Source: Siphonodentalium dalli (lineage: Eukaryota > Mollusca > Scaphopoda > Gadilida > Siphonodentaliidae). From it: a DNA stretch of 64,000 bases. The notes beneath the pieces are model-generated. The model was not told where the DNA came from. It saw nothing but the letters and a program-made list of their open reading frames with translations, and ran no database searches. Every line of letters starts with the position of its first letter. The first letter of the stretch is position 1. Shown here piece after piece: positions 1 to 51,600 of this stretch. Location of the stretch: contig CP136065.1 of NCBI GenBank assembly GCA_032622095.1, positions 245,211,474-245,275,473 on the forward strand, given 5' to 3'. A program made the translations under genes and the position numbers.

Positions 1-380
1 CCGGCCAAAACCGGCCAAATAAAGCTTCAACAGCCTAAAATATCTTCGGTCTGTCTCAATAGAACCATACAAATATGGATATCATTGTAACCGGCTCCTT
101 GACCACATTGTGATAGTTACAGTTATGCCCTGTGCCAATGCATTCTCTTATACATGCGAGTCGACCATAGGTCGCCTCGCATATATAAGAGAATGCATTG
201 GCCTAAAAAAAATCGTTTTTTAACACTTTTTACCATTTTTTCTTACATTCTTTAACAATTTTATAATTTTTAATGTGTTAAGCCAATGCATTCTCTTATA
301 TATGCGAGGCGACCTATGGTCGACTCGCATATATAAGAGAATGCATTGGCACAGGGCCCTTCTGTTGGGTAAAGGGTTAT
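1..380. mobile_element. piggyBac-like MITE, outer type a, carrying the double-hairpin cassette (cut by window edge)
   Basis: The right terminus reads GGGTAAAGGGTTAT at about 367-380, and the left end is lost at position 1. Two complete relatives (12740-13081 and 41511-41911) start TTAACCCTTTACCCAACA and end GGGTAAAGGGTTAA, with TTAA on both sides. The internal cassette at 128-356 has two hairpins of core CCAATGCATTCTCTTATAT separated by an A/T-rich spacer and is bounded by CCCTGTGCC/GGCACAGGG. It sits in intron 14, directly beside the exon 14 donor. Confidence 0.75.
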
Positions 381-388
381 ATACTCAC

Positions 389-624
389 ATCAACAATCCA
401 AGAAACTGATGACGCCTTGTTGTGGATGGTGATATTGACCAAGAATTCTCCGGTCGTGTTATAAGTTGGAATGGATTGTGCGAGGGATGGCGGTATGTTA
501 AACGTAGGATTCTGTATCTCGACAGATGTATCGTAATGGGTTATGATGATTTCTGCATCATCTGGATCTTCACCTGCAGGTCCTATGTACTGCATTGTCA
601 TCAGGTTCGTTGTAAGACCAGGAC
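389..624 (-). CDS. Exon 14 of the polycystin-1-like gene (last exon in window)
   Basis: 236 nt, acceptor TTATCAG|GTCC at 625-626 and donor GAT|GTGAGT at 388-387. The first two bases complete a Ser codon with the last base of exon 13, and the exon ends in phase 0. It encodes about residues 1086-1164: SPGLTTNLMTMQYIGPAGED and onward, ending KASSVSWIVD. The part with GEFLVNITIHNKASS looks like the final strands of a PKD-type sandwich and carries N-x-T sequons. The next exon lies left of the window. Confidence 0.8.
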
Positions 625-3600
625 CTGATAAAAAAATAAGTAGGAGAAATAAATTGGACCTGGGATCAGCCTAGAGGGAGGGTATGCGGCTTATACGGAC
701 CCTGGCTCTTACGGACCCTGGCTCTTACGGACCCTGGCTTTTACGGACCACCGGCTGATACGGACCCTGGCTTATACGGACCCCGGCTCATACGGACCTC
801 AATTAAAATATGCAATTTTCAAACTTATATTTATATATATAATTATGATTGTCTTTTTACCCATATATCTGTATTAATTGAGAATTTCGGTGATTTTTTT
901 GGTGATTTTCAAACTTATATTTATGAATATGGCTGATTTTTTCAGTGATTTTCAAACTTATATTTATGAATTTAATATATAATTATGATTGTCATTTCAC
1001 ACATATATCTGTATTAATTGAGAATTTTTGTGATTTTTTTGGTGATTTTCAAACTTATATTTATGAATTTAACCAATTTTTTCATTTTTTTTCAAACTTA
1101 TATTTATGAATTTAATATATAATTATGATTGTATTTTCACACATATATCTGTATTAATTGAGAATTTCGGTGATGTTCTGGCTTGAAAAAGCATTTATTG
1201 AATCGCGTTAATTAATCTCTTCCTTGTATAAACACGCGCGTGTGATCCCTTTATGTCGTTGTATAAACAGACATGCTGTGATAAATGGTGATCAGGATGA
1301 ATCCACTGAGTTTGATTTGTTACGAAAACATGTTAGTAAAAACACAACTTGTTTCAACTGATATATTAGCCATTGTGTAAACACTAGTGTGTGATCCCTT
1401 ATATTGTTTTATAAACAGACACGCGATGATGAATGGTCAGTGAATGGTGATCAGTATGAATCCACTGAGTTTGATTTGTTATGAAAACATGTTAGTAAAA
1501 ACACAACTGGTATATATTCAACTGATTTATTTTTGACTGGCATAATTCCACAATGACTGCATTGAACCTGAATGTTCTACTTGAGAGCACAACAGCTACT
1601 ACTCGTCGATGAGGATAACTGCCAGCAAACTACTGAAAGAAGCCGCCAAGCTGTAGGCCCCAATTTAGATAATGTTCATCTGATGTAACGTTGTTCCATT
1701 TTTGTTATCATCAGATATTTTGTTATCTCAGTATGTATGTTGTCAGTATTTTGATTTTATTTAAATAAACATATAAAACTTAAATTGTATATTTTAATTG
1801 AGGTCCGTATGAGCCAGGGTCCGTATAAGCCGAGGGTCCGTATAAGCCAGGGTCCGTATGAGCCGGTGGTCCGTAAAAACCAGGGTCCGTATGAGCCAGG
1901 GTCCGTAAGAGCCAGGGTCTGTATCAGCCGGCATTCAGAGGGAGATATTGTCTCCCTGATATGTACAGTAATGACCTAAATAATCTACTCCTTACCCACA
2001 GAAGAATTATGGTAACTTTTCAGGATTTAGTCGGAAATATGGCTTGTTGCCATTCATCGGAAAGTTCTCAGTGAGTGCTTTCCGATGAATGGCAACAAGC
2101 CATGTTTCCGACTAAATCCTGAAAAATTACCCATAATTCTGCTGTGTTTAAGGAATCGATTATTTAGGGCATTACTGTAGGAGAAATAAATAGGACCTGG
2201 GATTAGCCTAATATGTAGTTAACCCATCAATGACTGGTGCTTCCTGAAATTTGGAGAAAACCATGTGCCAATGCATTCTCTTATATATGCAAGTCTCCCA
2301 TAGGGACGAGCGACTTGATTTTTTTTTAAAGACATCTATTCAATGATACATGGCTATATGGAATTTAATTCTGAGAAAATATTGTTGAAAATTGCTTTGT
2401 AGCCCTGAAACGTGGTTACAATCATGGTAGGTAATCACGTGGTTTCGAAGTTGATGAGTATCACTCATTCAAAATTGGCTGAGGTGATCTCAAACGCGAC
2501 CATAGATGAGGAAAAAGGTAATAAACTAGGACACGACATATCACATAGTATTTCGGCAGCTACAAGCATATGCTATTCTATTTTTCAAAAAAGCTGATAC
2601 ATCATTTCTGACCAAAGTTGTCAGTCGAACTATTCTCCTAGTAGTATATATGGTCTTGTGTATTCCACGAACCTCCGACTGGCAAATTTGGTCAGAATGT
2701 GTAGAAAACTACTGAGTATTTCGGAAACAAATAAGGTATCAACATGTTTTAAAAATAATCTAGCATATGCTTGTGACAGTCAAAACGCTATGTTTTGTGC
2801 CTCATATATTAAGTTTTTGTTCGTTTGCGGAAGCCTCGGCCATTTTCAATGCGTGGTACTCAACCTCGAAACCACGTGATCATTCCCAACCGTGACAGTG
2901 ACAACGAACGAGAGAATTGATTTTGATTCCCACTTTTCTGCATGCCATTGTAATTGAGGTGGTGTTTGTATCATGTTGCTGGCAACAAAAATTCATATTT
3001 TTTGGACCATGTTTCTTGCCTTATATGATTTATTTGATTGATTTATTTATTATAGTGACATTACGTTAACAAACATCCGGCCCATAGGGCCTATAAGTCA
3101 CTTGGTACACAAATACAATATTATTATTAATGCATGTTTTGGCTATTTAGATAGTTTTTATTGTCTGATTGAATATGCCTGAGATATAAACCGAGCAGTA
3201 TGTACAGCACAATTATTTACACAGTGAGCCATGATATCTACATCAGAATGTAACGGGGAAATATCGATACGAGAAAATAGGTTTGAACGTTCCTGTCTGT
3301 AAGCTGGATAACGAATGAGGAAGTGAAGTTCAGTTTCCACCTCGCCTGTTTGACACAAAACACAAATCCTATCCTCCACGTCCACATTTCGGAAACGACC
3401 CGTTTCTATTCTGAGAGGCAAGATGCCACAACGGAATTGAGCCATCAGCGAACGTTCTCTGTGCGATATCCGCGAAAGCACGTAGGGTTCCACACAGTAT
3501 GTGGTTTTGAATAGTTTGTACGTACGGAGCTTCCTGAGGCGCCTGACATCAGCAAGCCAGTTTGCTTCATTAAATTCATTCAGTTTTATTGTTAATTTTT

Positions 3601-6600
3601 CTATATCACATTTATTCAAATATTTCACATAGCCTTATAAGTTATATGGCGCCACAGATCACTTTAGGCTTATACTTACTATTGCTGAATACTTCCAGAG
3701 CATTGGAAACGATATCAAAGCGAGGACGTAGGACAGGATTGAGACAGTTGAATAGTGTAGTGACGGTAATATCTTGAACTAAACTTAGGAGATTGACGAC
3801 TATGATCCTTCCACCTCCGGCGCAATCACCCGCTGTGAATGTATGGTGGATAGTGTCTGTACCATCCTCACCGCTCCCTGTCAAAGATACATATTCATAT
3901 ATTAGGTTAGGCCAAAACAACAAAATATAGACTGGTTTATGAACATTTGGGTTGAAAGAAAAGTAGAGGCATGATGGGGGGGGGGGTGTAAAAATTAAAC
4001 CACGACAGCAATTGCCAAAAAACAGGACTGTCCATGAATTTCACAAAAAAAATTAATATAATTTTACTCAAATTATCAAAACAAACTGAATTATTTCTTC
4101 CTATAAAACTGTATAAATAATGGAAAAGCAGTTGAAAACAAAACAAGAGACAGCCGTCAACTATTTTCTTCACCACTGTGACCACATGCTTCATGTTTTA
4201 ATGAACATAAACCAACAAAATATTTTTTTTGCAATTTGAGAAAAATGTTGTAGGATGGGATCGTAAACAGGACTATTAAATTGCTTTTGCCAAGCACTAG
4301 GGAGCCTGCTGCATAATCCGCCATGATGAACATACGATTGACAGGTGTCAGTAGCGTGCATCATGTATGCTCCCTGTCAAATATTGACAAGCCTGCAAAT
4401 AGTGTGTCTCAGGCCTGGAAATCACAATGTGGGCTGGCGCGGGCTCCCCACCTGCAGCTCGCCTAGAATTTTCCAAGAAGCCTTTTTGTAATGTTGTAGG
4501 GTCGGGTTTTAATTTTCAAACCCGAAATGCATGTGTGGTAGAGTGGTCAATTCCTACAATCATCACAGGATTATACGTTGAATAATAAGAATAACGTATA
4601 AAATAATTATTTAATTGAAGAATATCATTGTATTCAACATGCAAGCATATAGTCTATAATGCGCCGATTCAGTGGTTGAATTCCCATGCATAAGTACAGC
4701 AGCCCAAAGCTATGTTAACAGGGAGAGTCCAGAATCTGGCCTAAAATGGGTTAAATTCCAAAGTTGGGAATCCCAATAGACATCAGCTAGCAAAGGGATG
4801 ACTTTCAATTAATTCCCAAGTAAGTAAAACGCACCGCCTGTACAGGTGGTGACTAATTCCACTGTAGCGTAAACACCGTTTCAATTATGCCGAAGTCCAA
4901 GTCTCAGGTAAGACTAAAATGCCGTAAATCGAAGCGTCAGGTAAGACTAATTAGTTCCGCCAACGCAGAATTACGTCATGAGATGTGAATGGCCAACATA
5001 GTCATCAAAGTTCCTATTCCGGTAAGCACATAAATTGTGCACTAAGTATCAACAAAGGCTGTATATGGGTTATGCGCCAGAGAATGGTCTGTTTCAAAAA
5101 GTGACTCCTTGACGGTTGGGCGGGTCCTTTTATACCCAGTGACCCCTAGGGGTCACTAGCCTGACAACCAACGGACTAGGGGGTCGTACGTGACCCAAGG
5201 GGTCACCCGCGAGCCCGGAGTCTTAGAGAGTTGCTGACTGCCGTTGAGACTACTGCACGCGCCAGGGGTGATAGGAAGACAGTCAGTCATGACTATATCA
5301 CCCCTAGCAATATACATGTATAGTCTATCAATATTATATTTATTTGTAATTGTACTTTCCATGTGTGTATATTGTAAATAAAATTATCCTATCCTATCCT
5401 AGCTTGACAACGAAGTATGACGTAGGCGTACCTCGTTGCATCCATGTGCGTACAGTAAACAAGGAAAATGGCTGCCTAGATAGAGAGTATTTACGAAAAC
5501 GAAAGTAGCACGAATTGCACCTGGGAAAATCCCAAATTAGAAAACGTAACTCCGTTACATTTTTATAGCCCGTCTCGTCCTGAGAGATATGTACAGTAAT
5601 GGTCTAAATAATCAACTCCTTAACCACAGCAGAATTATGGGTAACTTTTCAGGATTTAGTCGGAATAATGGCTTGTTGCCATTCATCGGAAAGCTCTCGT
5701 CGAGAGCTTTCCGATGAATGGCATCAAGCCATATTTCCGACTAAATCCTGAAAAATTACCCATAATTCTGCTGTGGTTAAGGAGTCGATTATTTAGGGCA
5801 TTACTGTAAAATATGCTCAGATAAAAAATATGACATTGCGTCAAGTTGAAGCGTTCCATCGAGTGATGATGTCGGCCACGTGCCATGATGTGTTAAATCA
5901 TTGGCAAGCTTCCAAAATCTTAACTGTGTCCGACATTCTATATAATGGACATGATCGATGCATGTAAATGTGCAGAGATATATCGTTATTAACTGGGTCA
6001 AGTTCGAAGTACTTTACATATGCATTACGTATGTGGGGTTCACAGAAGGGGTTGTTGTCAGCGCTGAATATTTTGTCCTTGCGTGATTACTAAAGTTCGT
6101 TTTCACCGTGTGTTAGCTTGAGGATATACTCTGGTAATGTGAAAACCACAGAAATGACTCTGTAAAACTTGGTTTAAGTTTTATTTGAAATGTTTGTGTC
6201 AATGCGTGGCGTGGTGAAAACATGCACAATGTGGTGCGCCATTTTCAAAAATAGTTTTAAGAACTATCTTACCAATTTTCTATTGATTATTATTGATAAA
6301 AATTTTATAGGAAGAAATTACATTTCTTGGCCGTAATACATGCAAAGGATTGTTTTAATTTATTCAGTTTACGTGAGACGCTTACAGGGCCATATCCAGG
6401 GATAATTTGGAGACACCGGTATAAATGCTGAAGGCTGCAGTGAGAGCTTTCCGATGAATGGCAACAAGCCATATTAATACGACATACGTCAGCACAGTAC
6501 ATGTATTATAACCGATATTGATAGGGTCAATAATACTGATACATGTACTACACTTACTTGACAGATGCATGTTATAGTACGGTAAGTAGCATATATCATC

Positions 6601-9600
6601 GGAGGAGTTGAACAATATCTGTAAGTAGGCCTACACATTGCAGGTGCCACAGAGTGCAATATCGGTGAAACGAACATGGATGGAGACCAAGCAAAGAAAA
6701 CCCCATATCGTGTTTGAATAAAACAATATGAACACTAAGTAGTAAATACTTGTATATTTTTAATGCCATGCATCGAACCACATGCTATTGATGTTGTCGC
6801 CTTTCGTCATGCGATCTAATAACACAAATCGAAAAACACATGAGACGAGTGCCAACTCGCATGATGATTTGCATGCAGACTCGGGCTTTTCGTCATGACA
6901 ACAATAATCACTCAGTTGAGTGTGACCACTAATCGTCAATTTAAGTAGCAGCAGGTCACTCTTTGATGTTGCGAAGGTGTCGTTAACACTCATTAGGACG
7001 CAATAATATTCATCTGTAACTTATGTGGATGTTCAAAGGGGAGTAATCCCATGTTAGTATCCTATCGCAAACAGGATAATTATAAAAATCTACGACACGT
7101 GTTTCCTGCATATATGTGCCATACGTTTTATCACAGAATACTATTATGGGGTGTAAATTTAGTATCGTAGTTAGGAATTCTAGTCAAATTGAGTGATACA
7201 GCTTTGTGTTGTATTTTTTTGCATAAAAATATTTATGATTTCTGACCGTTTTACTGATCTTATAAAATATAGATAGATCCATGACTACTGAGTTTGGGCT
7301 CCTGGAGTTTGGGCGCCCAAACCAGTATATCAGTACCAAAAATGTTCTGGATATGGCCCTGGCTTATCAGCTGATTGTAGTGTCAAGGTGAAGTGTAGTG
7401 TCAAGGTGAAGGTGATATAGCCGGTCAGAAATAAACAGAACAAATAGATCTACACCATACACGTGGTGTTGTCAACTTGTCATCGGTGATGGAATACGGA
7501 TTACTTTGACAAATAAAGCAGTCATTTGTAACTGTATTATTCCAGTGTACATATACTGGATTTAATATGCTACTTGATTGTGTATATATATACTATTTTA
7601 TAAAACATTACACAACATAGAAATTACTTTAAAGATATTGACAAACTCACCCAATTTCATTGCATGGGGTTGACACCGACTGACAAATTGTTGAGTACAA
7701 ACACACTTACATTTTGTTTGTGGTTCATATTAATTATATGCTGCATTGAAAAAAATGGCCCGTGTTGGACCATTTTATTTCAATTTTTGATTCACCGTAG
7801 TTGTGAACCAGAATGAAAATACGAAACTGTCACATGGAAATTGGTTATGTTTCAAATATCGAACAGGAACTAAATACAATGGCGTATGTGTGGCTAATCA
7901 ACAAAAGACCATAGGCAATGATAACTATCAGGTATATTGTCACCACAGGCTGTCCAATCCCCCCAAGTTTATTGGTCAAATGTGTTATTGTTGTTAATAT
8001 GCTACTTGATTGTGTACTATTTTATGAAACATTACACAACATAGAAATTACTTTAAAGATTGACAATCTACCCTGCACAGTGGGCTAGCATAACCAAATT
8101 CACCCTCTGGGGACCTCATTCTGCATAGGCCTCAACTGGAAATTAAGTATCTATAGTCTCTAAATAACACTGTTTTTAGTTACTTCTGTTCAGTTTCTAT
8201 ATCCCCTAATTTGCAGAAGTTGAAATATTTTTATAAAAGCAGGAAGTGACAATAATATACACGATCTAATTTACAGTAATGACCTAAATAATCGACTTCT
8301 TAACCACAGAAGAATTATGGGTAACTTTTCAGGATTTAGTTGGAAATATGGCTTGTTGCCATTCATCGGAAAGCTCTCGGGGAGAGCTTTCCGATGAATG
8401 GCAACAAGCCATATTTCCAACTAAATCCTGAAAAGTTACCCATAATTCTGCTGTGGTTAAGGAGTCGATTATTTTGAGCATTACTGTATATTGCTCATGA
8501 CATTTGTGTATAGAAATCATGTTTTGCTTTGTTTGCTTTTTTCCATTTATCATTCTTGGTTATAACCAAATGTTTGTTTTTTTACCAATAAAGAATTTGA
8601 ATTTGTAATTATCATGCTGCTTAATGCAGGACTACAAGTACGTGTTTAATTGGTATCTACCACATTCAAAACATGAAATAGTCTGTCTGTCATTTACAGA
8701 ATGAGGTCCCCATAAGGTGAATGTAGGCATGCTACCCTGCACAGTGGGCTAGCATAATCAAATTCACCCTCTGGGGACCTCATTCTGCATAGGCCTCATC
8801 TGTAAAGTATCTATAGTCTCTAAATAACATTGTTTTTAGTTACTTCTGTTCAGTTTCTATATCCCCTAATTTGCAGAAGATAAAATGCATAAGGCCAAAG
8901 AAACAAATATTTGCGGTTTGGGTTTCCCTACCGACCCTATTTTAAACCCCCTACCCTAAAGTTTTTTTCATGGTTTTCAAGAAAATCTATTTAATTTTTT
9001 CTCCGAAAATTTCATAAAACACAAAAAGCAGATTTAAGCATCTCAGAAAAGGTTGATTTCTAAGTAAAAGTATTGTGTAATATTAACAGTTATACAAAAA
9101 TAATCAAAAGTAGTTTTATGTCATCTTGCGGAGTAAAATATGCAACGAAAAGTCATAAAAATATGCCAAAATAAAAAAATTAATTAAAAAAATAAAACTT
9201 CAAGCCTACCTACTGACCCTATTTTTTTCGGCTTGTAACCCAAACCAGACATTTAATTTTCTTTTGACTAATCAAGGTGACAAATGGGTGAACAACACTT
9301 CAATGAGGACTAAGCAGAATGAGGTTTCCAGAGGATGAATTTGGTGACGCTGTGCGGGGTAGCATCACTAAAATCACCCTCTGGGGACTTCATTCTGTAA
9401 ATGACAGACACACTATTTCAAGTCTTGCCCACATTCTGTGATTGTAAAGGCATAATATATTGTGTACTGTGCATGGGTTTATTCATATGGATGTAATTGT
9501 CTGAAATAAATTAACCCTTCCAAGACTGGAGCTTCCTGAAATTTTGCGAAAACCCTGTGCCAATGCATTCTCTTATATATGCGAGTCGACCATAGGTCAC

Positions 9601-12600
9601 CTCGCATATATAAGAGAATGCATTGGCCTAACAAATTTTATATTATTTTTTATAATTGTTAAAGATTGTAAAAAATAATGATAAAAAATTATAAAGCTTT
9701 CCGATGAATGGCAACAAGCCATATTTCCGAATAAATCCTGAAAAATTACCCATAATTCTGCTGTGATTAAGGAGTCGATTTTCAATTCTGACATGACTGA
9801 ATTAAATGGCCATTTTCCCACAACTCCGCCCTATGAGCAAAACCAGACCTGCTTAATATCTGATGGGGGTGTTTCTTATACAGGGTTCATACAATATTTT
9901 CACAATTCCATTCAAGGACTATTGAAGGACCCATTCAAGGACTATTGAAGGACCCATTCAAGGACTATTGAAGGACCCATTCAAGGACTAGATCGGTTGA
10001 ACTCAAGGACCTGCCCCCTATAATAGAAGCAAATTCCAAAATGTTATAATATTCACCGTATAGCATGCCTTTCATTGCACATTATTATTATTATATATAC
10101 ATTTAAAAACGCATTAGACATCAATTAGGCCTTTTATTTTTGATAAAGTGGTTTACGGAATTTTTGCCCATTGGTTCAGTCGGGTCGGACGAAAAAAAAA
10201 AATAAAAAAAAATGGCAATATCAATTTTTATTTTTTAGGTTCGTAAACATGTATGTCAGCACTTTTGTCAGGGGGCTTCCAGAATGAAGATAATACATTA
10301 TACTTGGGGAAAAAACACAATATTTGGTGTCAATATTCCGAATAATTCAAAAATATAAAGATTTGAGAATTTTTTAATGTTGAGTATACTGCTCCACAGA
10401 TATATTGCATCTGACAGTATTAAAGTCACGTCTTTCCATCCATATATTACTCTAGTGACCCAAATAAATGTACCTGTACGATTATTATTTTTAAAGTGAA
10501 AGTCCACCCTGTATGATTCTTATTTGGGCCCTATGATTATTACATTTAATGAAACATTTCTGATTTATTGGAATGCTCACATAAAAGTGTACATTACGTG
10601 AAAGAATAACATGTTGGCATCGAGCATTTACATCATTATTAGGTTAATACTGATTTTCGTCGCGCTCTCCATGACGGTCGTAGTGATAAATCATATCACG
10701 AAATTTGGAAACGCCGTCACCATGAAGAGCGCGACTATTACAAAAGCTACCCAGTATCGATTAAATACTGTACTAATTGTACGGGAATGACTCGCCGAGA
10801 CCAGGGGATGAGTTTGGCCGATCAAAAACTGATATGAAAAGTATGATGGTCGGAGAAATGATTTATTTTTTATAGTCGGAGGAAATAATAAAAAAAAAAT
10901 TATAATCGGGTTTTTTTTTTTTAAGCGGACGTATTTTAAAGGGGTCGGCGGATCCGTAAACCACTAAATCAAAAAAAGAGGCCTTAGTTTCAATGCGATT
11001 TACATAAAAAGGTACACAAAAGTTCACAATAAAAACAATATATTTTAAAACTAAGAATTTAAAATACGGAGTCGGAGATTTAAAAAAGTGAGTCATTAAA
11101 ACTATACACAGCGGTAAAAAATAACTAAAACTCAAATAAAAGTCATTGCACTTAAATATCTGATTTGAAGCTAAGAAGTGGATGCATAATCTACTGTTTT
11201 TTATTTGTCTGTTGCAATTTGAAGCTCAGATGGAAGAATATGTTACTATCGGCCATAGATTTTGGTCAAGATGACTATATATTTCTAAATTATCAGTTGA
11301 CAATTTAGATATGTTTATAGGCTTTATATAAAAATACGGAAGTGGAACTTTCCCATCAGGGCCGTCACGGAAAGGTATAGTTAAAGGGCGGAATGTTGGA
11401 TGGAACTGATGCTTGTTCTGCTTCATTAAGTTTACCGATCGAGTATAGTTAACAATATTTACAAAGCTGTACAAGTGTAGGGGAGCCTGGGAGGAGCCAC
11501 AGGTGGGGTTCTGTACTTTCTCAATATTCAAGGTCTATTCAAGGACTGGTTGTTCAATTCAAGTACTATTCAAGGTTCAAACCTGATTCAAGGACTATTC
11601 ATTCCAAGGTCCAAAATTCAAGGACTATTCATTTCCGTGTGAACCTCGCATATATAAGAGAATACATTGGCCTAACAATATTTATCCCTTTGAGTGCCAA
11701 GTCGATTTTTGTATCAACCCATATACCCTGTGCCAATGCATTCTCTTATATATGCGAGTCGACCATAGGTCGCCTCGCATATATAAGAGAATGCATTGGC
11801 CTAACAATTTTTTTTTTTTTTCTTCTATTTTTTTTACAATTTTAATAATTTATTCTTATATTCTTTAACAGACTTATTTTGTAGGTTTAGGGCCGATGAG
11901 ATCGGCCCCTGGCACTCAAAGGGTTAATCTGCACCAGTGCAGCTCCAGTCATGAAAGGGTTAATCCCTCCATGACTGGAGTTCCCTGAATTTTTGCGAAA
12001 ACTCTGTGCCAATGCATTCTCGTATATATGTGAGTCGACCATTAAGAGAATACATTGGGCTAACAAATTTTATATGTTTCATAATTGTCATAAAATGTGA
12101 AGAAAAAAAATTATAACAAATTGTTAAAGGATGTAAGGAGTAATGAAAAAAATTATAAAAATTGTTAAAAAATGTAAGAAAAAATTATAAAAATTGATAA
12201 AGAATGTAAGACAAAATGATAAAAAAATTTATCAAAATTGTTAAAGAATATAAAATTTTTTTCAAAAATGATAAAAAAAATGATGAAAATTGTTAAATAA
12301 TGTAAAAAAATTTATAAAAAATTGTTAAGCCAATGCATTCTCTTATATGCGAGCAATCTATGATCAACTCGCATTTATATAAGAGAATGCATTGGCACAG
12401 GGTTTTTAATGTTGCACAATCACAGCTCCCGTCATGAAAGAGTTAATAATAATATTATTGTTTTTGGCTTGTTATATGTATACATGTATCTTACCTGTTC
12501 TATCCATGTTTGGATAAACAGTCGTTCCGCCATCTAAATCCCAACTAATTTTCATCTGATTTGGTCCACGATACAGAACGATATTTATGGAAATATTTTC

Positions 12601-15600
12601 ACCAATCGGGATGTCTTCTGTCAGTAGCTGTATCCGAGGGTTTATAATCGGCTCCATGATCCACAGATCTCTCTCAAACACCTAGATTCAACATTCAAGA
12701 TAATTTAGGTCATGTAAAGTCAATTTCATGTTTCTCAGGTTAACCCTTTACCCAACAAACCGGCCAAATAAAGCTTCAACAGCCTAAAATATCTTTGGTC
12801 TGTCTCAATAGAACCATACAAATATGGATATCATTGGAACCGGCTCCTTGACCACATTGTGATGGTTACAGTTATGCCATGTGCCAATGCATTCTCTTAT
12901 ATATGCGAGTCGACCATAGGTCGCCTCGCATATATAAGAGAATGCATTGGCCTAAAAAAAATCTTTTTTTTAATACTTTTTACCATTTTTTCTTACATTC
13001 TTTCACAATTTTATAATTTTTAATGTGTTAAGCCAATGCATTCTCTTATATACAGGGCCCTTCTGTTGGGTAAAGGGTTAACACTCATTGTCCAAAAACC
13101 CTGTGCATGCAAAAAATTTATTTGCAATCTGTCATGAAAGTTTATAATCAATACAAAATAATTGGGATACATTGATTATACAAACGCACACGGAAGTGAA
13201 AGACATGTTTCTTGGTTCAGGTTTCAACTGGGGCTCAAATATGCATTTACAGTAATGCCCTAAGTAATCGACTCCTTAAACACAGCAGAATTATGGGTAA
13301 CTTTTCAGGATTTAGTCGGAAATATGGCTTGTTGCCATTCATCGGAAAGCTCTCGGGGAGAGCTTTCCGATATTTACTGTACAATCGGATCGATCTAACC
13401 GATTTTGATTCCGGCTCATTTTTTTTATCAGGTTCCGACTCTATTCCAACTTAAAAAATATTTTGAGAAGTTTTGTTGAGGAAGAACGAACAGAAAGGCG
13501 AGTGTAATCTTCTATGCCACAACGAGTTTCGACTATGTCAACAGGCGTCAAAGATATTTTTAGGTTCATAAAATCTTTGCGAGCGAAAAATTGCTTACGC
13601 CAGTTAAAAGTTAAATTGTGCAAAATTTCCAGGCCTGCAGTGGCCTGTAGGTCGTGTGTTATATCAGAAAATCCTGATTTATCAACGACGAGAGTCATGA
13701 TATTAACAATTTCCATATTTGTTGGGAAATAGTCAGTAGTTTTCTATAACATTCTGACCAAAGTTGCCAGTCGGAGGTTCGAATCGTAGAATAATACAAG
13801 TCCACATATCTAGGAGAATCCTTCGACTGACAACTTTAGTGATGCTATTTTAGCTTTAGCAGGCTAGCATCACTAAATTCACCCTCTGGGGAACTCATTC
13901 TGCTTAGGCCTCATCTTCTCTGGAAAGTTTCTTTATTATCAAATTTCATTAGAAACTTCTTCACATAGATTCTATTTCTTTTTTAGTTTAGTTTCTCTAT
14001 ATTCCAAAATTGGCAGACGACACATTGCATATTTGATGTTCCCAATGGGTGTACATTATAATATTCACCATTTGGGAACTTCAATCTAAGTTGATGTCTC
14101 CCATAGCAGATGAGGCCATGGGATACATCGACTTAGGTCCTAAGAGGGTGAATTTGGTGATGCTAACCTGCTGTGCAGATAGCGTCACTATTATATATAA
14201 AATTCACCTCTGGGGACCTCATTCTGCAAATGACAGCCACACGAAACTCAGACTTGGCGTCATCGATAAAACTAATGAAACCTATTCGGAAAATGACAAT
14301 TTTCCTACACATACACAAATGATAAGTTTTGTGCGATAGATAAATAAAATATATAGTTTGAGCCAATTTTTTTCCAAAATGGCCTAAAAAAAAGTAAAGA
14401 TTTTACCCCAAAATCGGAATTCTAATTCATCAAAAACCCAAATTGATTTTGTAACGGGAGTGACATGAGAATCAAATTTATAGTATGACCATCTGCTAAT
14501 TGATTAGGTGATACAGCTTAATGGGTAACAAGAAGGCACTTATGGCAGTTCACTATCAAACAATGTAATAAAAACAGTAATGAAGATTAACACTAATGAA
14601 TCCTTTGGTCTGTCATAAGGCTGAATGGTAATTAAATGATGGGTTGTGATATATTGTCACTTAACAATGGTGGGATTAAAGAAGTCTTGACACCCTATTT
14701 GAAGGTATGGAGATAATTATATAGAATGTTAGATCTTAAATAAAATTAAAATATTCATAAATTGGGAGACCAGAAAATGAGGATTTAATTTGGACAATTT
14801 TTTTTTTAATTTGTCAAAATAAAAATCAGAATTGGCCAAAATATTTTCGCCCCAGAGTGTACACTGCACAATTGAACCAATTGAAGTGCATGACTGGAGC
14901 CTCCTGAAATTTTGCGAAAACCCTGTTTATTCGCTGATTACCACCAAACTTATACACAACCATCCCCATGATATCAGGAGTCTAATTGTGTGGTTTAAAG
15001 ATGTCAATAGTGGGGCCACTCGAGTCAATGGTGCATGGAGGGGGAGAGGGACACAAAAATTGTTAAAATTCGAGTCAGGGGTGCACTTAACGAGAGAGAG
15101 GCACCACAATTGATAAAAATATTTTTAGCGCCGATTTAGACCAATTTGATAAACGTTCTTCGCCCATTTCTATCACATAAATAAATATTCTTCTCAATGA
15201 ATCGAGGAATCTCGCCGTGTGGTTTAATTATGTCAAATTGGTGCCATTTGGGTGAGAGATGGGGGGGACACTAAATTTTATACAAATTTGTTAAGTCACT
15301 GATTTCCATCAATTTTATAAATATACTTCATAATGATTCTAATTGTGTGGTTTAAAGATATCAAAAGTGACACCCCTTAAGTCAGGGATGGGGAGGGGAG
15401 GGTCACCAAAACTGATACAAATATGTTTAGCACCAATTTCCACCAAACTTCTCCAATGATATGAGGAATCAAATCGAGTGGATTAATTTGGTGCCTATAT
15501 TTGCGAATGTCTGTGTGTCTGTGTTATATATAACTTCACGGTAGACCATCTAGATGATAAAGGGGCCAACAGGCATAACGTTTAAAGAGGAAGATAACAG

Positions 15601-39600: not shown

Positions 39601-42600
39601 AAGCTCCAGTCATGGAAGGGTTAACCCACTAACCAACTACAGTAATGCTCTAAATAATCGACTCCTTAACCACAGCAGAATTATGGGTAACTTTTCAGGA
39701 TTTAGTTGGAAATATGGCTTGTTGGCATTCATCGGAAAGCTTTCGGCGAGAGCTTTCCGATGAATGGCAACAAGCCATATTTCCGACTAAATCCTGAAAA
39801 GTTACCCATAATTCTGCTGTGGTTAAAGAGTCGATTAATTAGGGCATTACTGTAGCTCCATTTTATCACACAGGTGACAGTTACATAAGCGCATGCATCA
39901 ATCCGACTATAATGACTGCATGAAATGGTGATTTAAAAAAAACAGTACTCAATAAAAATAGTCCCAACAGCGAGATCGTTGCATGATTGCTATTTCAATA
40001 TTATAAAGTTATTATACAATGTTGTGTACAGTATGTGTTTTTCTTGTACGAGTCCAGGTTGTGGTGAAAAGTCATATAGTGTCGAGTCCAATATGACTTT
40101 TCACCACAACCTTGACGAGTACAAGAAAATCCCATACTGTACACAACATTGTATAATGACATTTTTATTATCCATCTGTATGTTAATCCAAATTTTGGGA
40201 ATAAAACTTTTGTGGTTATTTTTGGTATTTGTCGGCACTTAATTCTCTATAAAAGCCTGTATTTTGATCATCAGAAAGCATGATTTGGAAAAGTAAAGAA
40301 GTGAAACGTCTGCTCAAATCCACCAGTGTTGCCCTCGCATCACAATTTCACCGATTCATTTCGCAATAGAGTTAATCGTGACGTCACGGAGTCCCGATAA
40401 AAAAGTGATATTGCACACTTGGGAGTCCAATATGACATTCGGGAGTACAATATGACTTTTTCCCGGACTATCACGTGGCGGCTTTTGCCCAATCGGAAAT
40501 GGTGTTAGTTAAGGGATGGATAATATTTATTTATATTTATTGTGGCCTGGCAGCATGCAGTTATTCATAGAGTTGTCAATGGGAAGGAAAACCAGCTCCA
40601 ATTGCACGCGATCCACAACAACAAACTGCAAAACAGTCTAGCATATTTGACTTTGGTACTGGGATCTACATGTATCTTCCTCCCAGTAAATTCGGACATG
40701 GGTGTTTACTTTTCGGTATCACTGGGTTGACTGGGGACACTGGACATATCAATCTGCACAATTTTATTGTCACAATCCTGTTGTGGCAATTTCACTTCCC
40801 TATCGATCGCCTTGGCATATAACATAGGACGCATGTTTCTTTGATGTGCCCATACATGTGATGTCATGCCCGATACCTGGGTTTGAATATTGAGAGACAT
40901 GCATAATGAACTTATATGTACGAGCAGCCTTGTGAGTATACAGTGTATATGATCAAATTTCTGACATGTTTACAGTATTATTGACAATACTCGCTCAGAG
41001 GACAAATCCTTCTACATGTATGTCACGGATCGCCGAGCGACTATTTTAAGATTTACAAATTATGGAATGGGACACGGCTGTCATTTTGTGAGTATAACGG
41101 TGTAAATGTATTTCATGTGCGGCAATCCAAATTTCACAATAATAAGAGCATGCCAATCAATGCATGTGGAACACGTTGTCGACTGAATGTTCTAAATGAT
41201 ACTATATTATTCCAGTCCACTGAAATCTGATTTTTTACTGTCCGGTTGACATCTTTCCGGTTGACACCTGTCTGGTTCACACGAATGTATACTGTTTATA
41301 AATATTAGCAAACTATTTCACAATTCACATAATGTACAATCAGTTTCTATTTGTTATTGATATCAATATCAATTTTGGGCGACATATAGTTGAGATATTT
41401 ACAAAGAGCCATAGAATGAAAGTCTAGCATAAATCGACCGCTTTCGAACCAATATTTTCTAACCGAATTTGAATTGAATATCGAGACCGAATCGAATATC
41501 GAATCGAACATTAACCCTTTACCCAACAAACCGGCCAAAACCGGCCAAATAAAGCTTCAACAGCCTAAAATATCTTCGGTCTGTCTCAATAGAACCATAC
41601 AAATATGGATATCATTGGAACCGGCTCCTTGACCACATTGTGATAGTTACAGTTATGCCCTGTGCCAATGCATTCTCTTATATATGCGAGTCGACCATAG
41701 GTCGCCTCGCATATATAAGAGAATGCATTGGCCTAAAAAAAAAACTTTTTTTAACACTTTTTACCATTTTTTCTTACATTCTTTAACAATTTTATAATTT
41801 TTAATGTGTTAAGCCAATGCATTCTCTTATATATGCGAGGCGACCTATGGTCGACTCGCATATATTAGAGAATGCATTGGCACAGGGCCGTTCTGTTGGG
41901 TAAAGGGTTAAATATTTGCAGGACGCTTGGTTGTTGGTAGGTAATGGTGGGTATAATACTTACAGCTACAGTGGCCTGTTCATTGTTCACATAGGATGTT
42001 ACTAGGTAGTTTCCAGGCAGTGAATATTCATGACTGAATGTGTTTTGGAAGATGACTGGCATTCTCCCAGCATCATCATCATAATCTGAGTTGTACATCA
42101 GCAATAAACTGTTTCCTGTTTTCATTGTGACGTTGAAATCTATCATTTCCTGTAAAATAAAATTTCTGTTTTAGTAAACAATTAAGTCAGGCACCCGCGT
42201 CAGTACTCATTAGCGCGCGCACCGCGTGTATTCTGTTCGGCAATTTCTTGATAGCCGTGGTCCCATGGGCATTTTATTTATAGATAATTGTTTTTTCCAG
42301 TTTAAAAGTCGAACTGCGCGACCAGGAGGCAGAGTCCGGTAAAAGGTGTAGTTGGGAATTTCAATTTTGTTCATTGTCCTTTATATTATTATGCCAATAT
42401 AGTTGATTTTTGGTTTGTGACAAGCTATGTCAATTACCAATAAAAAAAATTTAATAGATAATTTGTAAGTCTTATATTCCAACTTTTACAGATATTTTTC
42501 GTTCTGCAGCCTACTGATGGACATTCTATTAACAGCTGATTGGAGTAATGCGGACACTTTTATAAAATTCTATTTACGAGATGTCCACACAGGTGTTCTG

Positions 42601-45600
42601 GAATGAGTTCTGAAAGTTTCAAGGAGCTGTTTACATGTAAATGAGCAGTATTGGCATGCATGAAACTGTATATAATGTATATAGACAGCAAGCAAAAAAA
42701 AAAAAGAACAAAAAAAAAGTGTATAAACTGTATAATTAAAATTGAACAACATGGATGGAAGCATGAGACACATAATCAATCCACAGCAACAGAGGTGGCT
42801 TTGGAGTCAAGACAATTCTATATGAATATGTCAGGTAAGTGTTAGTTTATGATATAAAATTTATAGATTTGGACACAAGTCCAAATTTTATGAATAAACT
42901 ATACTTACCTGACATATTCAGGCCCACCCTAAATTATCCTCCCCTTCAATTATTGTCTCATGGTATGTTTTTGAGCGTCGTGAGATACTGAATGAAGAGG
43001 AAGCACGGATCACGTGACCACATAGCAGTTGTTTTTAAAAATGTAATCCGGAAACGGAACGAAACGAAACTGGATAGGGCCAGTTTACGACGAGATCGTG
43101 AATACAATTCTATATGAATATGTCAGGTAAGTATAGTTTATTCATAAAATTTGGACTTGTGTCCAAATCTATAAATCTGCAGGACAAACTTGTAAATAAT
43201 GTTGTATTAAAGCTGAGATCATCAGTCCTTCCCAGGAGACGGGAGCGATTGCTCTCGCACCTGTATGCACTCACAATTTTTAAATCACGGGTGCTAAATT
43301 TCGCACTCGTCTCTTGTCATAATATCTATAGTCACTGTAATTGTTGATTCATTATTGAACTATTTGAAGGTACAGTAATGCTCTAATTAATCGACTGCTT
43401 AACGACAGCAGAATTATATATGGGTAACTTTTCAGGATTTAGTAGGAAATATGGCTTGTTGCCATTCATCGGAAAGCTCTCGTGGAGAGCTTTCCGATGA
43501 ATGGCAACATGCCATATTTCCGACTACATCCTGAAAAGTTACCCATAATTCTGCTGTGTCGATTAATTAGAGCATTACTGTATAATTAGAACCTTTCACA
43601 TCTCAGTTAAATTATGGGCATGTGGAAGTGTAACTGGACATAGGTGTTTCCCACAATGACATTTTGTTTTATAAAAACCCAACTTGTGATTATATTACGG
43701 GCGCAATTACACCCGTCTTCTGAATTGCGAGGGCTAATAAGTGCTCAGCTCTCGCTGTGTTTTCCTCGTGGGAAGGACTGGATCATACCCCATATGATAA
43801 ATATCCCATGCGGTCAGAGAGTGCTCTCCGTAGTGCATAGACAATTGATACAGTAGTGGCAGGGCTGTCACTGATGAGGGGTGGGTTTCTTGGATCGGAG
43901 TAATCACATAATACATGATTTATGATCTCCCCCTCAGATGGAACCATGCATGTACAAAGCGAGCAACTGCATCCCATCCTAAAAATCCCAGGCTCTTCCA
44001 AAACTGATAAGAGGCTCTTTCGAATTTTGGCGGGTTGAATGGTATTATTTTGCATTACAGAAGACATATGCAATCTGATTATTGAACACCATCAACTTTT
44101 ATTTTTGCTTCCACAGATATGAGTATGTACATGTATGATGAGTGAGCCTTGTAGGTTAATATGGAAAGCCATCATTTATTTTCAAACAGAAGAACCAGAG
44201 GACAGGATGCATTTCCGCCCCATGTACATGCCTTATGTATCGAACGAATATATTCTTGCCTTAAAACATTTATTGAATATAAATGATCAAGTTGGCAACA
44301 TACGGTACATTACATTATTATACATTGAACGCAGAATATCTACATTTATGCATATGCTGTTTTCATTCAATTAATATTTTTGGGGAAAGAATGGAGCTCT
44401 CAGTTGCTGGTACAAACTTCTATATATGGTAATATGAACTTAAAACTGTAATTTGCTAAATGAAATTACAATTTTAATTTGCACTATTACGTAACACTGA
44501 AATGATGTTCTTTGAATCATTTCTGGATTAAGACTCCACAGATTAGCTCCTGAGTTAGGGGCTATGTTGGTTGACAAATCATTGTAACAGTTTTGTTTAT
44601 ATAAAAATGGTTTCAACATGCAAATTTTTTTTATTGGAGAACTATCAATAATGAATTTAAGAACAAAGTTAATCTATTTCTCTATGTGAATACAGACCTT
44701 GGTGGATACGAGTGAGGCCGATGCTGTGATGAGCAGACCGGTGATTGGATAGTCAGTTTGATACACACTGATGTGGCATTTGCCACCGCATGTTTCCCCT
44801 GTATTGACCCCCGAACATATCTCGGTACATCCCCACTCCTCTCTCTCTGATGCTGGAGGTAAGGTGTTTCCACACCAACATTGTTTCCCCTAAGAATATA
44901 AAATATGAGTCATGTGTTTTAACCCTTTCAGTGCCAAGTCCGATTTTTGTATCAACCCATATTTCCTTGATCATTTTTCAAATTTATTGATTATAATAAT
45001 GTGATACATTGATGGAAAGAGCTCTAAGAGCTCTTTCCATCAATGTATCATATTATTATAATCAATAAATTTGAAAAATGATTAAGGAAATATGGGTTGA
45101 TACAAAAATCGGACTTGGCACTGAAAGGGTTAAAGGAACATTATTTAATCATTTAATCATATTAACCCTTCCATGACTGGAGCTTCCTGAAATTTTGCAA
45201 AATAAATTTTTTACACAATTAATGTATGCAAACAATGAGTTATTGGAGACGGCATAACCTGTAAAGGCTGTCTTCCTGCTGTCTCCAAAACCGGAGGATA
45301 TAAAGAAATCATAGAATTATTTTAATTACTTAAATAAATATAGAATGTTTACATTTGTTTCGAAAAGTAGAAACATACTAGTAATAATGTTCGTCCATCG
45401 CTCAGCTAATAAGGCCAAAGAAAAAAGATAGTATGTTTCCGATAACGAAGTGAAAAATTAGGGTAGGTAGGTAGGGAATTTTTTTTTATTTTTTTTTTTT
45501 TATTTTTTATCCAGCTGCAGAAATATTGAATTACCTCGACCGAAAATGACATAAAATGCCAACTTGTGTTGTGGGAAAGTATTACTTGATAAACACAGCA

Positions 45601-48600
45601 CTAGGAAATATACTTTTAAGATTGATGAAAGATCAAACTTACTTCATGCTTTAATAAGGATGTTATTTATTTTTCACATACCACATTTTATAAATTTGGC
45701 TATAAACTTGGTATGAGATTGATGTCACTAACTTTTATAAGAATTTTACCCATAATACCGCCATTATACCGTACTTGTATTGTGACAACAACATCCCATT
45801 GTCTAGAGGTAGCCAGTGCACCCAACCTAGCATGCCTGGTTTTTGGAAACAGTAGCTGTACCCCTAACATATGTGGTCATAACCTATATACATGTATATA
45901 TACAGATACACACACGTCTGTTTATAGTGTTCCTACCGGTACTCTCAGGCTCCAAATAAAAGTGCAGGCCCAAATAATAGTGCACAGGAAAAATTCCATT
46001 GAAAGTTAAAACAGTGCAGACCCAAATAACTCTGAGCAAAACATCAACTATAGTTAAAAAAATTATAGTACATGTAGGTCAAGCATAGGAATCAACATAG
46101 TATGTGTCATGTAGAGTTTTATTCGATATTGACATGTTCACATGTATGCCATATACTTTTCATAGCCTCAAAATTAATAAACTTGCAGACTCAGATAAGC
46201 ACTGTGCAGGGAGGGGGGGGGGGGGGGGGGGGGGTCCCAAGAAAATAATAAATGGGCATGCATGTTTATTTGGAACCCATGAATATGTTCCATAAGTCCC
46301 AAACAAGGCATAATGGTAAAGCAGGCATGAGATCCACTCTCTTGAAATTAAAATTGCAAGATTCATGCCTATCAACCACAACCCATCACACACCTGTGGC
46401 TTTTGAGACAACTGTCACACTTCATGTCACTTATCACAGGCTTATGTTAGAAACCATGTGTTTTGCACCTAATGATTATCAATATTTATGAGCATTAGCG
46501 GTAAAAACAGTCGGCGGGTTATTTTTAGGGTCGGTCAATGTACAGAAACATAGTATCTTTTTTCTTTGGCCTAACATAGAATGTATAATATATCTGTGCA
46601 ATGTTTTGAGGAGATGAGGTCATATGTCGTTCATGATTGAGGTTCAAAATGAGATGAAATGGAATAAAATGGGGGAAGGTAAATATATTTAGGGAATGAA
46701 TATTCAACTATTACTAAATTGGTAAACTAAATTAAGAGGATTACTCACTGAGCACAGTCAGGACATCTATTGTATGTACATTTTGGTTTCATTTGGTAAG
46801 CAGTGTTCGCGCTGGACCGACACAAAATTTAGCCAAAAGTTTAGCCAAATGAAAACTTTATTAGCCAAATGAAAAAAACTTTCGCCAAATTTATTTTGGC
46901 CAAATTAAAAAAAACTATGGCCAAAAATTCATGCTTCCAGTCTCTATTTGGGGTCAAAAAAAGTTTAGCCAAAAGTTTAGCCAAATGAAATTTTTATTAG
47001 CCAAATTCGAAAAAGATTAGCCATTGGCTAATTTGGCTACCGACAGCGCGAACACTGTTGGTAAGTAGATAGGAATGTTCGAGAATAGTTGTTTTTAAAC
47101 ATTGGTCTTGTTGGGAGATCTTTAAGTCTATCTTCTAATTGGATCCATATATTTGGAAAATTATGTTCTGGTAAATCTTCTGAGAAAACACTCTTAGGTA
47201 TTCCGGACGTTAGCATTCCATTCTGACGAGTATTATTTTTTTAAATTGTGAACCTGTGCCAATGCATTCCCTTATAGTATCCCATAGGGAGCCTCGCATA
47301 TATAAGAGAATACAATGGCCTATAAAAATTATAATAATTTTTTCCTTGACCTTGTAAGCAAGTGCATTCTCTTATATGTGAGGCTCCCTATGGGAGACCC
47401 GCATATATAAGAGAATACATTGGCACAGGATCTTTAATGCTGCACCAGCACAGCTCCAGTCATGAAAAGGTTAAGCAGTCAATTCACTGAATACAATTCA
47501 TTGGTGACTTCTAAACTGTTGTATCCTCAAAAAAGCTAATTTTACAGGAGACCAAAAATTATTTATTTCTGCAGATAAATATAGGTTATCACTACCATGT
47601 TGGTCCATGTGCATTTCCGAGATCCGTCTTCAAGTGGAGCTACTTTCTCTGGGCCGTATATGCAGCCCAGAGAAGGCAGCAAGACTTGAGTACCTATCTC
47701 GGAAACACACAAAGTGGTGATGGCCAGTTTATCTTACAATTCACACAACAGATTATCATCTACAAGGTAGTATCTTAAGAGGATTATAAATGTATTTGTG
47801 CATATATAGATAATGAATTGCACAGTTGTCAAAAAAATATGTCAAAATAGATCCGAATAATCATACACACTAAATCACAGCAATATAATTTTGTGAAATG
47901 CAAACAGGTGTTTCGCAAACAACTCAATTAAATGGATATAATACTTCCCCTAGTAGATGTTTTAGTCAGATATTGTGAAAATTATAAGACTAATTGCATG
48001 ATGCCAATAGGCCGGTTTATCATATTTTGTTTACAAACGAAGTCTCTCCACTGCTCAATCACTATTGTCATCCAGGTTATGATCAAGCCTGAGTTTAGTT
48101 TGCAGAATGAGGTCACCAGAGGGTGTATTTAGTGACGCATAGCGGGCTAGCATGACTAAATTCACCCTCTGGGGAACCCATTCTGCTTAGTCCTCATCTT
48201 CTCTGGAAAGTTTCTTAATTGTCATATTTCTATAGAAGCTTCTTCACATAGATTCTATTTTTTAGTTTAGTTTCTCTATACATGTATCTCCAAATTGGCA
48301 CATTGCATAATCGAGGTTCCCAATGGGTGTACATCACAATATTCACCGTTTGGGAACTTCAATCTGAATCTATGTCTTCCATAGCAGATGAGGACATGCA
48401 GAATGAGGTCACCAGAGGGTGAATTTGGTGATGATAGCCCGCTATGCAGTACAGCATCACTAAATTCACCCTCTGTGGAACTCATTCTGCAAATGACAGG
48501 CACACTAAACTCAGACTTGGTTACGACTTGTTGCCATGCAGAATACAAGATTGAAAACCTCTTAGGCATAATTCACATGTATTGAGGAAAAATATATAGC

Positions 48601-51600
48601 TAAATTTTAAGATAATCTTTTTTATTATATGCTTGCCTCTAAAATAATGAAATATTACTGAAACGTAGATATGTATTTCTTAGAAGTCACAGTTAAATAA
48701 TATGATTTCATTATTCTACTGTAGCTTGCCGGTGTTTAATGCGAGCATGAATCAATATGCCAAGTACATACCGGACTCTTTCTTTCAGACTATATTGTAA
48801 TCATCAAAACCAATTAATTTCTCTCCATATCTTCATTTACCTGTGCTATCGCCACATAGATGAAGTTCAAGCTCCCGCATTCTGCAGTGCATTTGTATGG
48901 GTTCAGTTTCCATGCATTGTAGCCAGCAACAAAGTCTGTGTACATCCGTCTCCGACCCAGTCCAAATTCTTTGTAACAGCCACGATAGAGTGGTGGGTCT
49001 GCAATATGAGCGTATGCAAGCCTGGATTTAGTGTGCCTGACATTTACAGAATGAGGTCCCCAGAGGGTGAATTTAGTGACGCTATCCCGTATAGCGGGGT
49101 AGTATCACCAAATTCACCCTCTGGGGACCTCATTTTGCTTAGGCCTCATCTTCTGTGAAGTATCTAGAGTCTCAAATTAACATTGTTTTTCGTTTCTTTT
49201 CCATTCTGTTCAGTTTCTATATCCCTTATTTTGCAGAAGATAAAATGCATACCGGTAATCGAGGTGACTACTGGGTGAACATCACCAACTTCAACTTGGG
49301 AACTTCAACCTGATCTGATATAGGTCTCCCATAGCAGTTGAGGCCTAAGCAGAATGAAGTCCCCAGAGGGTAAATTTTGTGATGCCAGCCAGGGAAGAAT
49401 CCAGAGATAATTTGGGGACACCTGTTTCCAGCAGAGGATATGTACCGATATCCCAATATAACTTTAAAATACGGCTTCTACACCGAACCAACACAGATAC
49501 AGATGCATATATTATAAATATGACATAATATTTCTGATTTAAAAATTCAACATGCAAATGAAGGCTGTATTGCAACTGCAGATTTTTTATTTACAGCTCA
49601 TATTGTTGAATTGCCTTGAAAATTCAGGTTGACTCAATACTGTCCACTAGGAATTTGGGGTCATTTGGGCTTCTCAAGTTTGGGCGCCCATACCTGTAAC
49701 AGGTATCAAAACAGCCCTGGAAATTTCCCTGATGCCAGCCCTCTGGGGACCTCATTCTGCAAATGTCAAGACACAATATATCCAGGCTTTAGAGTATTTT
49801 AGGGATTATCGTTGGAATCATCAGGCCACGAATATAGGACCATAGAGCTCTTAACCCTTTGAGTGCCAGGTCGATTTTTGTATCAACCCATATACCCTGT
49901 GCCAATGCATTCTCTTATATATGCGAGTCGACCATAGGTCGCCTCGCATATATAAGAGAATGCATTGGCCTAACAATTTTTTTTACAATTTTAATAATTT
50001 ATTCTTATATTCTTTAACAGACTTATTTTGTAGGTTTAGGGCCGATGAGATCGGCCCCTGGCACTCAAAGGGTTAATGTCACAACTAGCCAATTATTTTC
50101 CCAATTTCTACTCTACAATTTCTGTACATGTAAAGTATGTCCGAACACAAGTAGGAATAAGTATATTCATGCTCTCCAACACTCAGAGCAGCTAGGATGA
50201 TGCTACACATCATATATGCCTATATTAATGGTGCCCCCCCACCCCGCCCTTTTAAAATTTCCTGGATCCGCTCCTGTGGATGAACAAATAATAGGGGTTA
50301 TTGGTGTTGAAGTGGAAATGCATAATATTTACCCTGAATGAAAATGAAAATAAATATGCAATGATTCCACCTATATTCAAAATAGCAATGTTTCTGGTAA
50401 CCCACCCACCCCCCTATGTAACCCCTGCCCACAAATTCATATGAAGATCATTTAGTCCACGATTATCATTTTCATGTGGAGTATGTATCAAACAACAACG
50501 GTACCTCCAGATGTTTAACCCATTGCTCGGCGATATATAGAGATTTATAGCTATAACTGATAGGTAGAGGGGTAATGTCGCAAGAGCTATACTCAACCTT
50601 CACCTCATAATTTGCAGTAACGTTATATTCAACTAATTAACAGGTCTTTTTCGGGTGGTTTCCAGAACACCAAAGTGGGTGGAACATCTTGATATATAAG
50701 TCAAATTGCACATGCGAGTGGAATTGAGTCGATTTGAGATTATAGATGCGCGCCCTATGAGTATACCATTTATTGAGGTCAAGGACGAGTATAGCTCTTG
50801 CGACATTACCCCGCTACCACCTCCATTGGTCATATAAATGAATAACTGCACCATGATTGTGTGTGAAATTTAAAATTGCAATGTTTGTCACTATTTGAGG
50901 TCTGCAGATGAGATCTATGACGAGAACATGTACAGTAAAACAACAAGCATTTAGTTCATGATTTACACGCAAAGTATGTGTTAGACATGATTGTGGCAGA
51001 TATTATCGCAAACTCCAGAACCCCCACACATGCATACAAGTACATGTATGGTACATGTATGTATATAAATTATATAACAATGTTTGTGATGCATTTAATA
51101 AGAACTACAACTCCCCGTACACACATACAAGGACATGTACGTGTATAAATCTAGAATGATATTAAAATATATAATCATGTTACAGTTTTTTAAAAATAAT
51201 TTACCAGGCTAAATGTTGAGTTTGTTGGATTGCCCTGATTTTTAATGTATATATCTACTGGTCTGTAGGATTGCCCTGATTTTGTATGTATATATCTACT
51301 GGTCTGTTGGATTGCCCTGAATTTTAATGTATATATCTACTGGTCTGTAGGATTGCCCTGAATTTTAATGTATATATCTACTGGTCTGTAGGATTGCCCT
51401 GATTTTGTATGTATATATCTACTGGTCTGTAGGATTGCCCTGATTTTGTATGTATATATCTACTGGTCTGTAGGATTGCCCTGAATTTTAATGTATATAT
51501 CTACTGGTCTGTAGGATTGCCCTGATTTTTAATGTATATATCTACTGGTCTGCACTGATAATGTTGAGTATGTTGGGTTGCCTTGATTTTTAATGTATAT

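Follow-up and report, generated by a model that had tools for sequence, protein, structure and literature searches.

A palindromic cassette shared by four transposon shells in the genome of Siphonodentalium dalli

How does one short palindromic sequence come to lie inside transposable elements whose outer parts do not resemble one another? The question is raised by a 64,000-nucleotide stretch of the genome of the scaphopod mollusc Siphonodentalium dalli (GCA_032622095.1, CP136065.1, positions 245,211,474 to 245,275,473), referred to here as the window, which sits in contig 5 of a 2.23 Gb genome in nine contigs. A module composed of one or two 67-base-pair (bp) palindromes with CCCTGTGCC/GGCACAGGG ends and an A/T-rich spacer of variable length recurs there within four kinds of transposon shell, which we designate a, b, c and d. 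This shared core is real and very abundant, and is best read as defining a group of chimeric miniature inverted-repeat transposable element (MITE) families.

The module and its four shells

The sequence CCCTGTGCC is matched 24 times in the window with at most one mismatch, against 5.5 matches expected and a number that none of 100 shuffles reaches, and the hairpin stem word CCAATGCATTCTCTTATATATGCGAG is matched 20 times on the plus strand and 19 times on the minus strand with at most four mismatches. The a element at 41511, folded whole as DNA, lies far below its shuffles (z -21), and its cassette folded as RNA gives z -24 against shuffles. Three of the shells, a (CCCTTTACCCAACA), b (CCCTTTSAGTGCCA) and c (CCCTTYCATGACTGGAGC), are flanked by TTAA and start with CCCTT, as piggyBac-type elements do, and the CC[C/T]T terminal motif stated for piggyBac-type TTAA MITEs (PMC2872659) is present in all three, as CCCTT in most copies and with changes in some c ends. 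The fourth shell, d, is flanked by TA and has TGTGACCCGCC ends. Copies of b carry one hairpin, and c occurs both in an old form with a short spacer and a different loop and in a young form (9511, 11960 and genome stretch L026) whose loop or spacer is as in a, b and d. The members in the window are as follows.

1-380, plus strand: a-type; left end just upstream of the window; cassette at 128-356; one target-site base changed (TTAT on the right)
12740-13081, plus strand: a-type; TTAA at both ends; second hairpin largely deleted
41511-41911, plus strand: a-type; TTAA at both ends; cassette at 41658-41887, two hairpins around the A/T-rich spacer
11682-11927, plus strand: b-type; single hairpin; one target-site base changed (TTAT on the left); apparently inserted into an older c element
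29433-29896, minus strand: b-type; single hairpin; TTAA at both ends; longer b interior
49851-50076, plus strand: b-type; single hairpin; TTAA at both ends
9511-9690, plus strand: left half of a c-type element; young hairpin; another repeat replaces the right half
11960-12446, plus strand: c-type; two hairpins, the first shortened; both cassette ends; young-type spacer that is a minisatellite (unit of ~32 bp, 12146-12328)
20604-20817, plus strand: c-type, old form; TTAA at both ends; hairpins degraded
27299-27489, plus strand: c-type element without its left end; both hairpins and the right end remain
47252-47474, plus strand: c-type element without its left end; both hairpins and the right end remain
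2218-2320, plus strand: c-type left-end fragment; half a hairpin
32630-32760, plus strand: c-type left-end fragment; half a hairpin
17940-18013, plus strand: c-type right-end fragment; half a hairpin
28486-28933, plus strand: d-type, TA|TGTGACCCGCC...TGGTGGGTCACA|TA; a cassette end on each side of a longer interior; left hairpin shortened
44919-45133, plus strand: b-ended palindromic MITE without cassette; ~40 bp of b end, different interior
30417-30767, plus strand: TTAA element without cassette; only 11-15 terminal bases a-like; another family

Outside the cassette these shells fail to align with one another, and the central claim of a first-pass annotation made from the letters of the window, that one cassette sits within several shells, is borne out. 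Its list of carriers stands for a (1-380, 12740, 41511), b (11682, 29433, 49851), c (9511, 11960, 20604) and d (placed at 28488), but its c copies at 27299 and 47255 hold only a c right end, and the degraded c copies at 2218, 32630 and 17944 had been missed. Two cassette-free shells had also been proposed. The one at 30417, taken for an a shell, belongs to another family with only 11-15 terminal bases in common; the one at 44919 does have ~40 bp of the b end, but around a different interior. A further b-ended element without cassette is found in stretch L006 of the genome, and c ends without cassette lie also at 39616 and 45162.

The shells had been called unrelated, which does not fully hold for a, b and c, with their common piggyBac-type TTAA-CCCTT ends. 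That common start invites the explanation of a single ancestral element for all shells, its ends having diverged and the cassette being merely the conserved part, a descent that the first-pass annotation had itself named as the case that would speak against it. However, d differs in both ends and TA target, hairpins are identical across a, b and d though their flanks cannot be aligned (in the window, the hairpin of the b copy at 49895 is that of the a copy at 41658), and b and c ends also surround other interiors (44919, 45162), and we consider a single diverged ancestor very improbable.

No Rfam family matches the window at gathering scores, the 24-base stem word has no match among the viral contigs or other genome contigs searched, and the a element has none among the plasmids searched. 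No paper was found that contains any of three 20-24-base words of the module, a result that does not show the cassette to be unpublished. The genome has at least 128 matches to the piggyBac transposase domain PF13843, from a scan that scored 116 of 649 candidates; many of the matches have open frames, and none of 14 control genomes has a match. Of 59 places where a c-left flank continues without the cassette start, none adjoins one of the matches listed, as compared by eye.

Copy number and outer boundary

The first 33 bases of the cassette have 123,984 exact matches in the genome, up to two per element, and the reversed control has none. The left junction of a with the cassette is matched 36,619 times and the b junction 11,222 times, both counts being of exact words and so lower bounds. 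The outer boundary of the cassette looks nearly fixed, because only 1,043 of the 123,984 copies are preceded by C or T. Eight of these C- or T-preceded sites were inspected: three are a, two are c and one is d, each with a changed or added base, and the other two have a d-like interior without a known shell. Empty a shells were sought with one exact a-left flank, any three non-C bases being required after it, and none was found: the two matches both contain the cassette.

These observations bear on whether the cassette was once a mobile element in its own right that had CCCTGTGCC ends, perhaps targeted TA and entered several shells by insertion. Its ends are exactly inverted, it is flanked by TA in b and d, it has one boundary in all four shells, and the copies at L014:888, L049, L056 and L059 have no known shell. 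But a and c show neither the TA nor a common target duplication, so few of the exact copies are preceded by C or T, and six of the eight such sites inspected are altered a, c or d shells, which together make this origin distinctly unlikely. Repeated insertion was one of the routes offered in the first-pass annotation; with a near-fixed boundary and one exact a flank that was not found empty (two matches, both filled), free and repeated movement of the cassette is not supported.

Among 31 modules located in stretches of the genome, 27 have a fuzzy match to a shell end no more than 400 bp away, although some of these ends may be those of neighbouring elements; the four without are L010:6353, L014:888 and the weak single matches L012:3289 and L017:2705.

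The distribution of the cassette is patchy. Nine of 16 10-kb stretches (L005-L020) have no stem match with at most three substitutions (L007, L008, L009, L011, L012, L013, L017, L019 and L020), and the other seven have 4-13. In contig C1, at 735735-779403 and 820017-920823, cassettes recur at regular steps of ~14,555 and ~11,175 bases (one of 11,408) and probably form tandem arrays of large units. We note also that in L028 the c-type end sequence TTAACCCTTCCATGACTGGAGTTACCTCCC is repeated in a short array, like a transposon end turned minisatellite.

Hairpin likeness, rearrangement and the source of the cassette

Compared as medians over 76 bp with indels counted, the hairpins of a, b, d and young c (the last represented by one left and two right ends only) are ~97% alike in most pairs of classes and mostly 0.90-0.99, as they are within classes, part of the a and b rows being drawn from loci found by the exact 33-mer, which raises their likeness. 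Lower medians are seen between left a hairpins and d (0.91) and within d (0.91), and the two young c-right ends reach 0.86-0.92. Diversity is much greater among old c hairpins, whose likeness to one another is 0.66-0.67. From 81 distinct flank-plus-hairpin sequences, 11 without an assignable shell, at least three of them chance-like, were left out of a tree; among the 70 labelled hairpins that remain there is one set of 14 identical sequences, comprising nine of a, three of d and two of b, four of which (both b included) come from loci chosen through the exact 33-mer.

The simplest reading of this distribution of young and old forms is an origin in c followed by transfer to a, b and d, and the explanation that we favour, and consider rather probable, is that the cassette is the interior of an old c MITE family that was rarely captured by a, b and d and then amplified within each chimera. 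In such a scenario the cassette would have begun as the interior of the piggyBac-type family c, and a younger form would have arisen there whose hairpin loop had changed and whose A/T-rich spacer was longer. Founder elements of the other three families would then have received copies of this younger form, probably one time each, the likely route being a template switch at the palindromes during repair or replication, for example when the gap left by excision is repaired from an ectopic copy; each chimera may then have been multiplied by the transposase of its own shell. The near-fixed boundary, the lack of an empty a shell at the one exact flank searched and the high diversity of c are such that rare capture from c fits.

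Several observations weigh against this explanation. The outer boundary CCCTGTGCC is identical across the four shells, which argues against random template switching because varied boundaries would be expected, so that either serial transfer or a limit at the base of the hairpin must be added as an assumption. No pair of shells representing the states before and after capture was found. A test of the d flank, for one T-run length and one subtype, gave one pattern match without the cassette word, and one exact c-left flank gave 59 pattern matches that continue without the cassette start, more than half of them with an extra A. Five contexts (L014:888, L049, L056, L059 and L010:6353) have no known full shell end; T-rich sequence lies beside four of them and most have a d-like interior, and they may represent either a fifth context or truncated d elements. 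Finally, the hairpin tree needs 14 changes of shell label, against 27.9 when labels are shuffled and a minimum of three, and although the labels are thus clustered the tree does not prove single captures, because few of its forks are resolved.

Exchange at the palindromes can be seen directly. A duplication of 521 bp in L010, with 97% identity across 612 bp, extends from a d element across the flank of that element to a c element, and the middle hairpin is c-like as far as the loop side of its right stem, beyond which it turns into a d end. Provided that the final base at which the two differ is original, the switch can be placed to within ~5 bases; should that base be a later CpG change, the switch falls somewhere in the right stem and end. 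In either case this is an exchange between cassettes of c and d shells, inside the hairpin. In L002 the two hairpins of an a element have collapsed into one hybrid. Both cases mark the palindromes as sites of rearrangement, and the gene-conversion-like template switching put forward in the first-pass annotation is borne out in so far as exchange at the palindromes is seen, but the route of the first capture into an empty shell is not thereby shown.

A different kind of exchange, ongoing gene conversion that keeps hairpins alike across shells, might account for the identical hairpins in different shells and for the absence of correlation between shell and cassette distances in 18 a elements, the collapsed copy included (r -0.04, p 0.49). 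In 11 a elements from unselected DNA, bases off the consensus number 12 of 1547 in hairpins and 58 of 1862 in shells (Fisher p 7e-7). However, shared subfamily variants make up 33 of the 58 shell changes. When singletons only are compared, p is 0.06 for the 11 copies, 0.013 if the collapsed copy is left out and 0.005 for all 18, five of which were chosen through the hairpin word and two through an a flank. Across the 36,619 a-left junctions, 33,994 retain ten tested hairpin bases and 32,814 ten tested shell bases, a loss of 7.2% against 10.4%; this 1.5-fold difference is statistically certain but small, and rests on a single choice of sites, which could explain it. Ongoing homogenisation of the hairpins is weak at best, and since a recent common source accounts equally well for their identity we regard continuing gene conversion as extremely improbable. 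The fourfold lower hairpin divergence in a elements is not taken as a sign of homogenisation, in view of the small genome-wide difference in loss.

The same figures bear on whether the cassette spreads by helping its carrier, either by favouring transposition or by letting several piggyBac transposases mobilise one MITE. Both counted carrier families are large (36,619 a-left and 11,222 b junctions), hairpins diverge less than shells in the 11 a elements, and a similar suggestion was made by the authors who described the CMITE families of corals (PMC2872659). On the other side stand the subfamily variants among the shell changes, the p of 0.06 for singletons in 11 copies, a difference in loss that the choice of sites could explain, and the lack of paired changes in young stems, so that a benefit to the carrier seems unlikely. 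The stems were readable in 58 of the 81 hairpins: 35 young hairpins show 16 single and no double changes, and 23 c or unlabelled hairpins show 12 same-base double changes against 6.9 (standard deviation 2.0) in shuffles. This covariation is too weak a signal for a claim of correction between stems.

The window holds other repeats and part of a possible host gene. A second family of near-perfect palindromes is found at 5592-5808, 8268-8492, 20255-20553, 21607-21797, 36296-36490, 39637-39855 and 43419-43547, with arms of 63-124 bp, mostly 1-3 bp between them (51 at 20255 and 63 at 36296) and, in several, ACAGTAATG-like outer ends. At 688-798 and 1802-1929 two arrays of a 16-bp unit stand in opposite orientation (GGCTCATACGGACCCT and its reverse complement), and the sequence at 660-1935 resembles an element with tandem repeats for ends; at 53841-54520 a 54-bp tandem repeat has 12.6 copies with 100% matches. 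A PKD domain on the minus strand at 18183-19502 and a polycystin channel domain beyond the window, at 5233-6819 of L004 (minus strand), are perhaps parts of a single minus-strand host gene resembling polycystins.

Comparison with known systems

MITE families usually have their ends in common with a parent transposon, and interiors are usually dissimilar between families (PMC2872659). The statement in the first-pass annotation that no described family is known to behave in this way is mistaken, as both the CMITEs of corals and Galileo of Drosophila do. The CMITEs of Acropora are piggyBac-type MITE families with TTAA targets, different ends and one conserved interior of ~75 bp, some of which form tandem arrays, with an estimated ~1600 copies in A. 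millepora (PMC2872659; Wang et al. 2010). As here, one interior is common to families with different ends, and the coral terminal inverted repeat (TIR) CCCTTTCACTGCCA differs by one base from the b end CCCTTTCAGTGCCA. The interiors, however, differ in sequence, the hairpin having no match and only 13-16-base matches (E 0.55) being found in the DNA compared; and the families described in the relevant part of the coral paper are TTAA elements only, with no mention there of a TA-flanked one, whereas d is flanked by TA.

In Galileo of Drosophila mojavensis one central region is found with the TIRs of three subfamilies, and the chimeras are attributed to ectopic exchange (PMC3573991). Those are related subfamilies of a single P-superfamily transposon with long TIRs, of which 170 copies were studied, and the Galileo target is 7 bp (PMC3573991), unlike the TTAA or TA found here, which sets the present elements apart from the Galileo/Foldback group. 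For the P-MITEs of Anopheles gambiae it has been proposed that interiors come from gap repair on an ectopic template, with stable secondary structure an advantage (PMC1562414), but in the passages drawn on no significant identity is reported between the internal regions of different families. Two further papers (PMC4168063 and PMC3442997) hold, in the parts drawn on, nothing decisive.

A looser likeness is offered by the highly conserved domains of short interspersed nuclear elements (SINEs) and by MER6, where a module is likewise carried by otherwise different elements and the V domain has also entered a mariner MITE (PMC6887750). Those domains are derived from retroposons (PMC6887750), whereas the present module is palindromic and the window has no Rfam match. 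By analogy with the SINE centre, the cassette could be a palindrome that DNA transposons carry as a passenger domain: it would promote template switching, pass from TTAA to TA superfamilies or back and raise the amplification of its shell, an idea that we put forward tentatively and judge unlikely.

Sharing much like that seen in S. dalli is known from corals and fruit flies, though on a smaller scale; what is unusual here is the copy number and the spread to a TA-flanked shell. The coral authors left open whether an interior affects amplification (PMC2872659), and the families described here provide a rich natural data set both for that effect and for the acquisition of interiors by MITEs.

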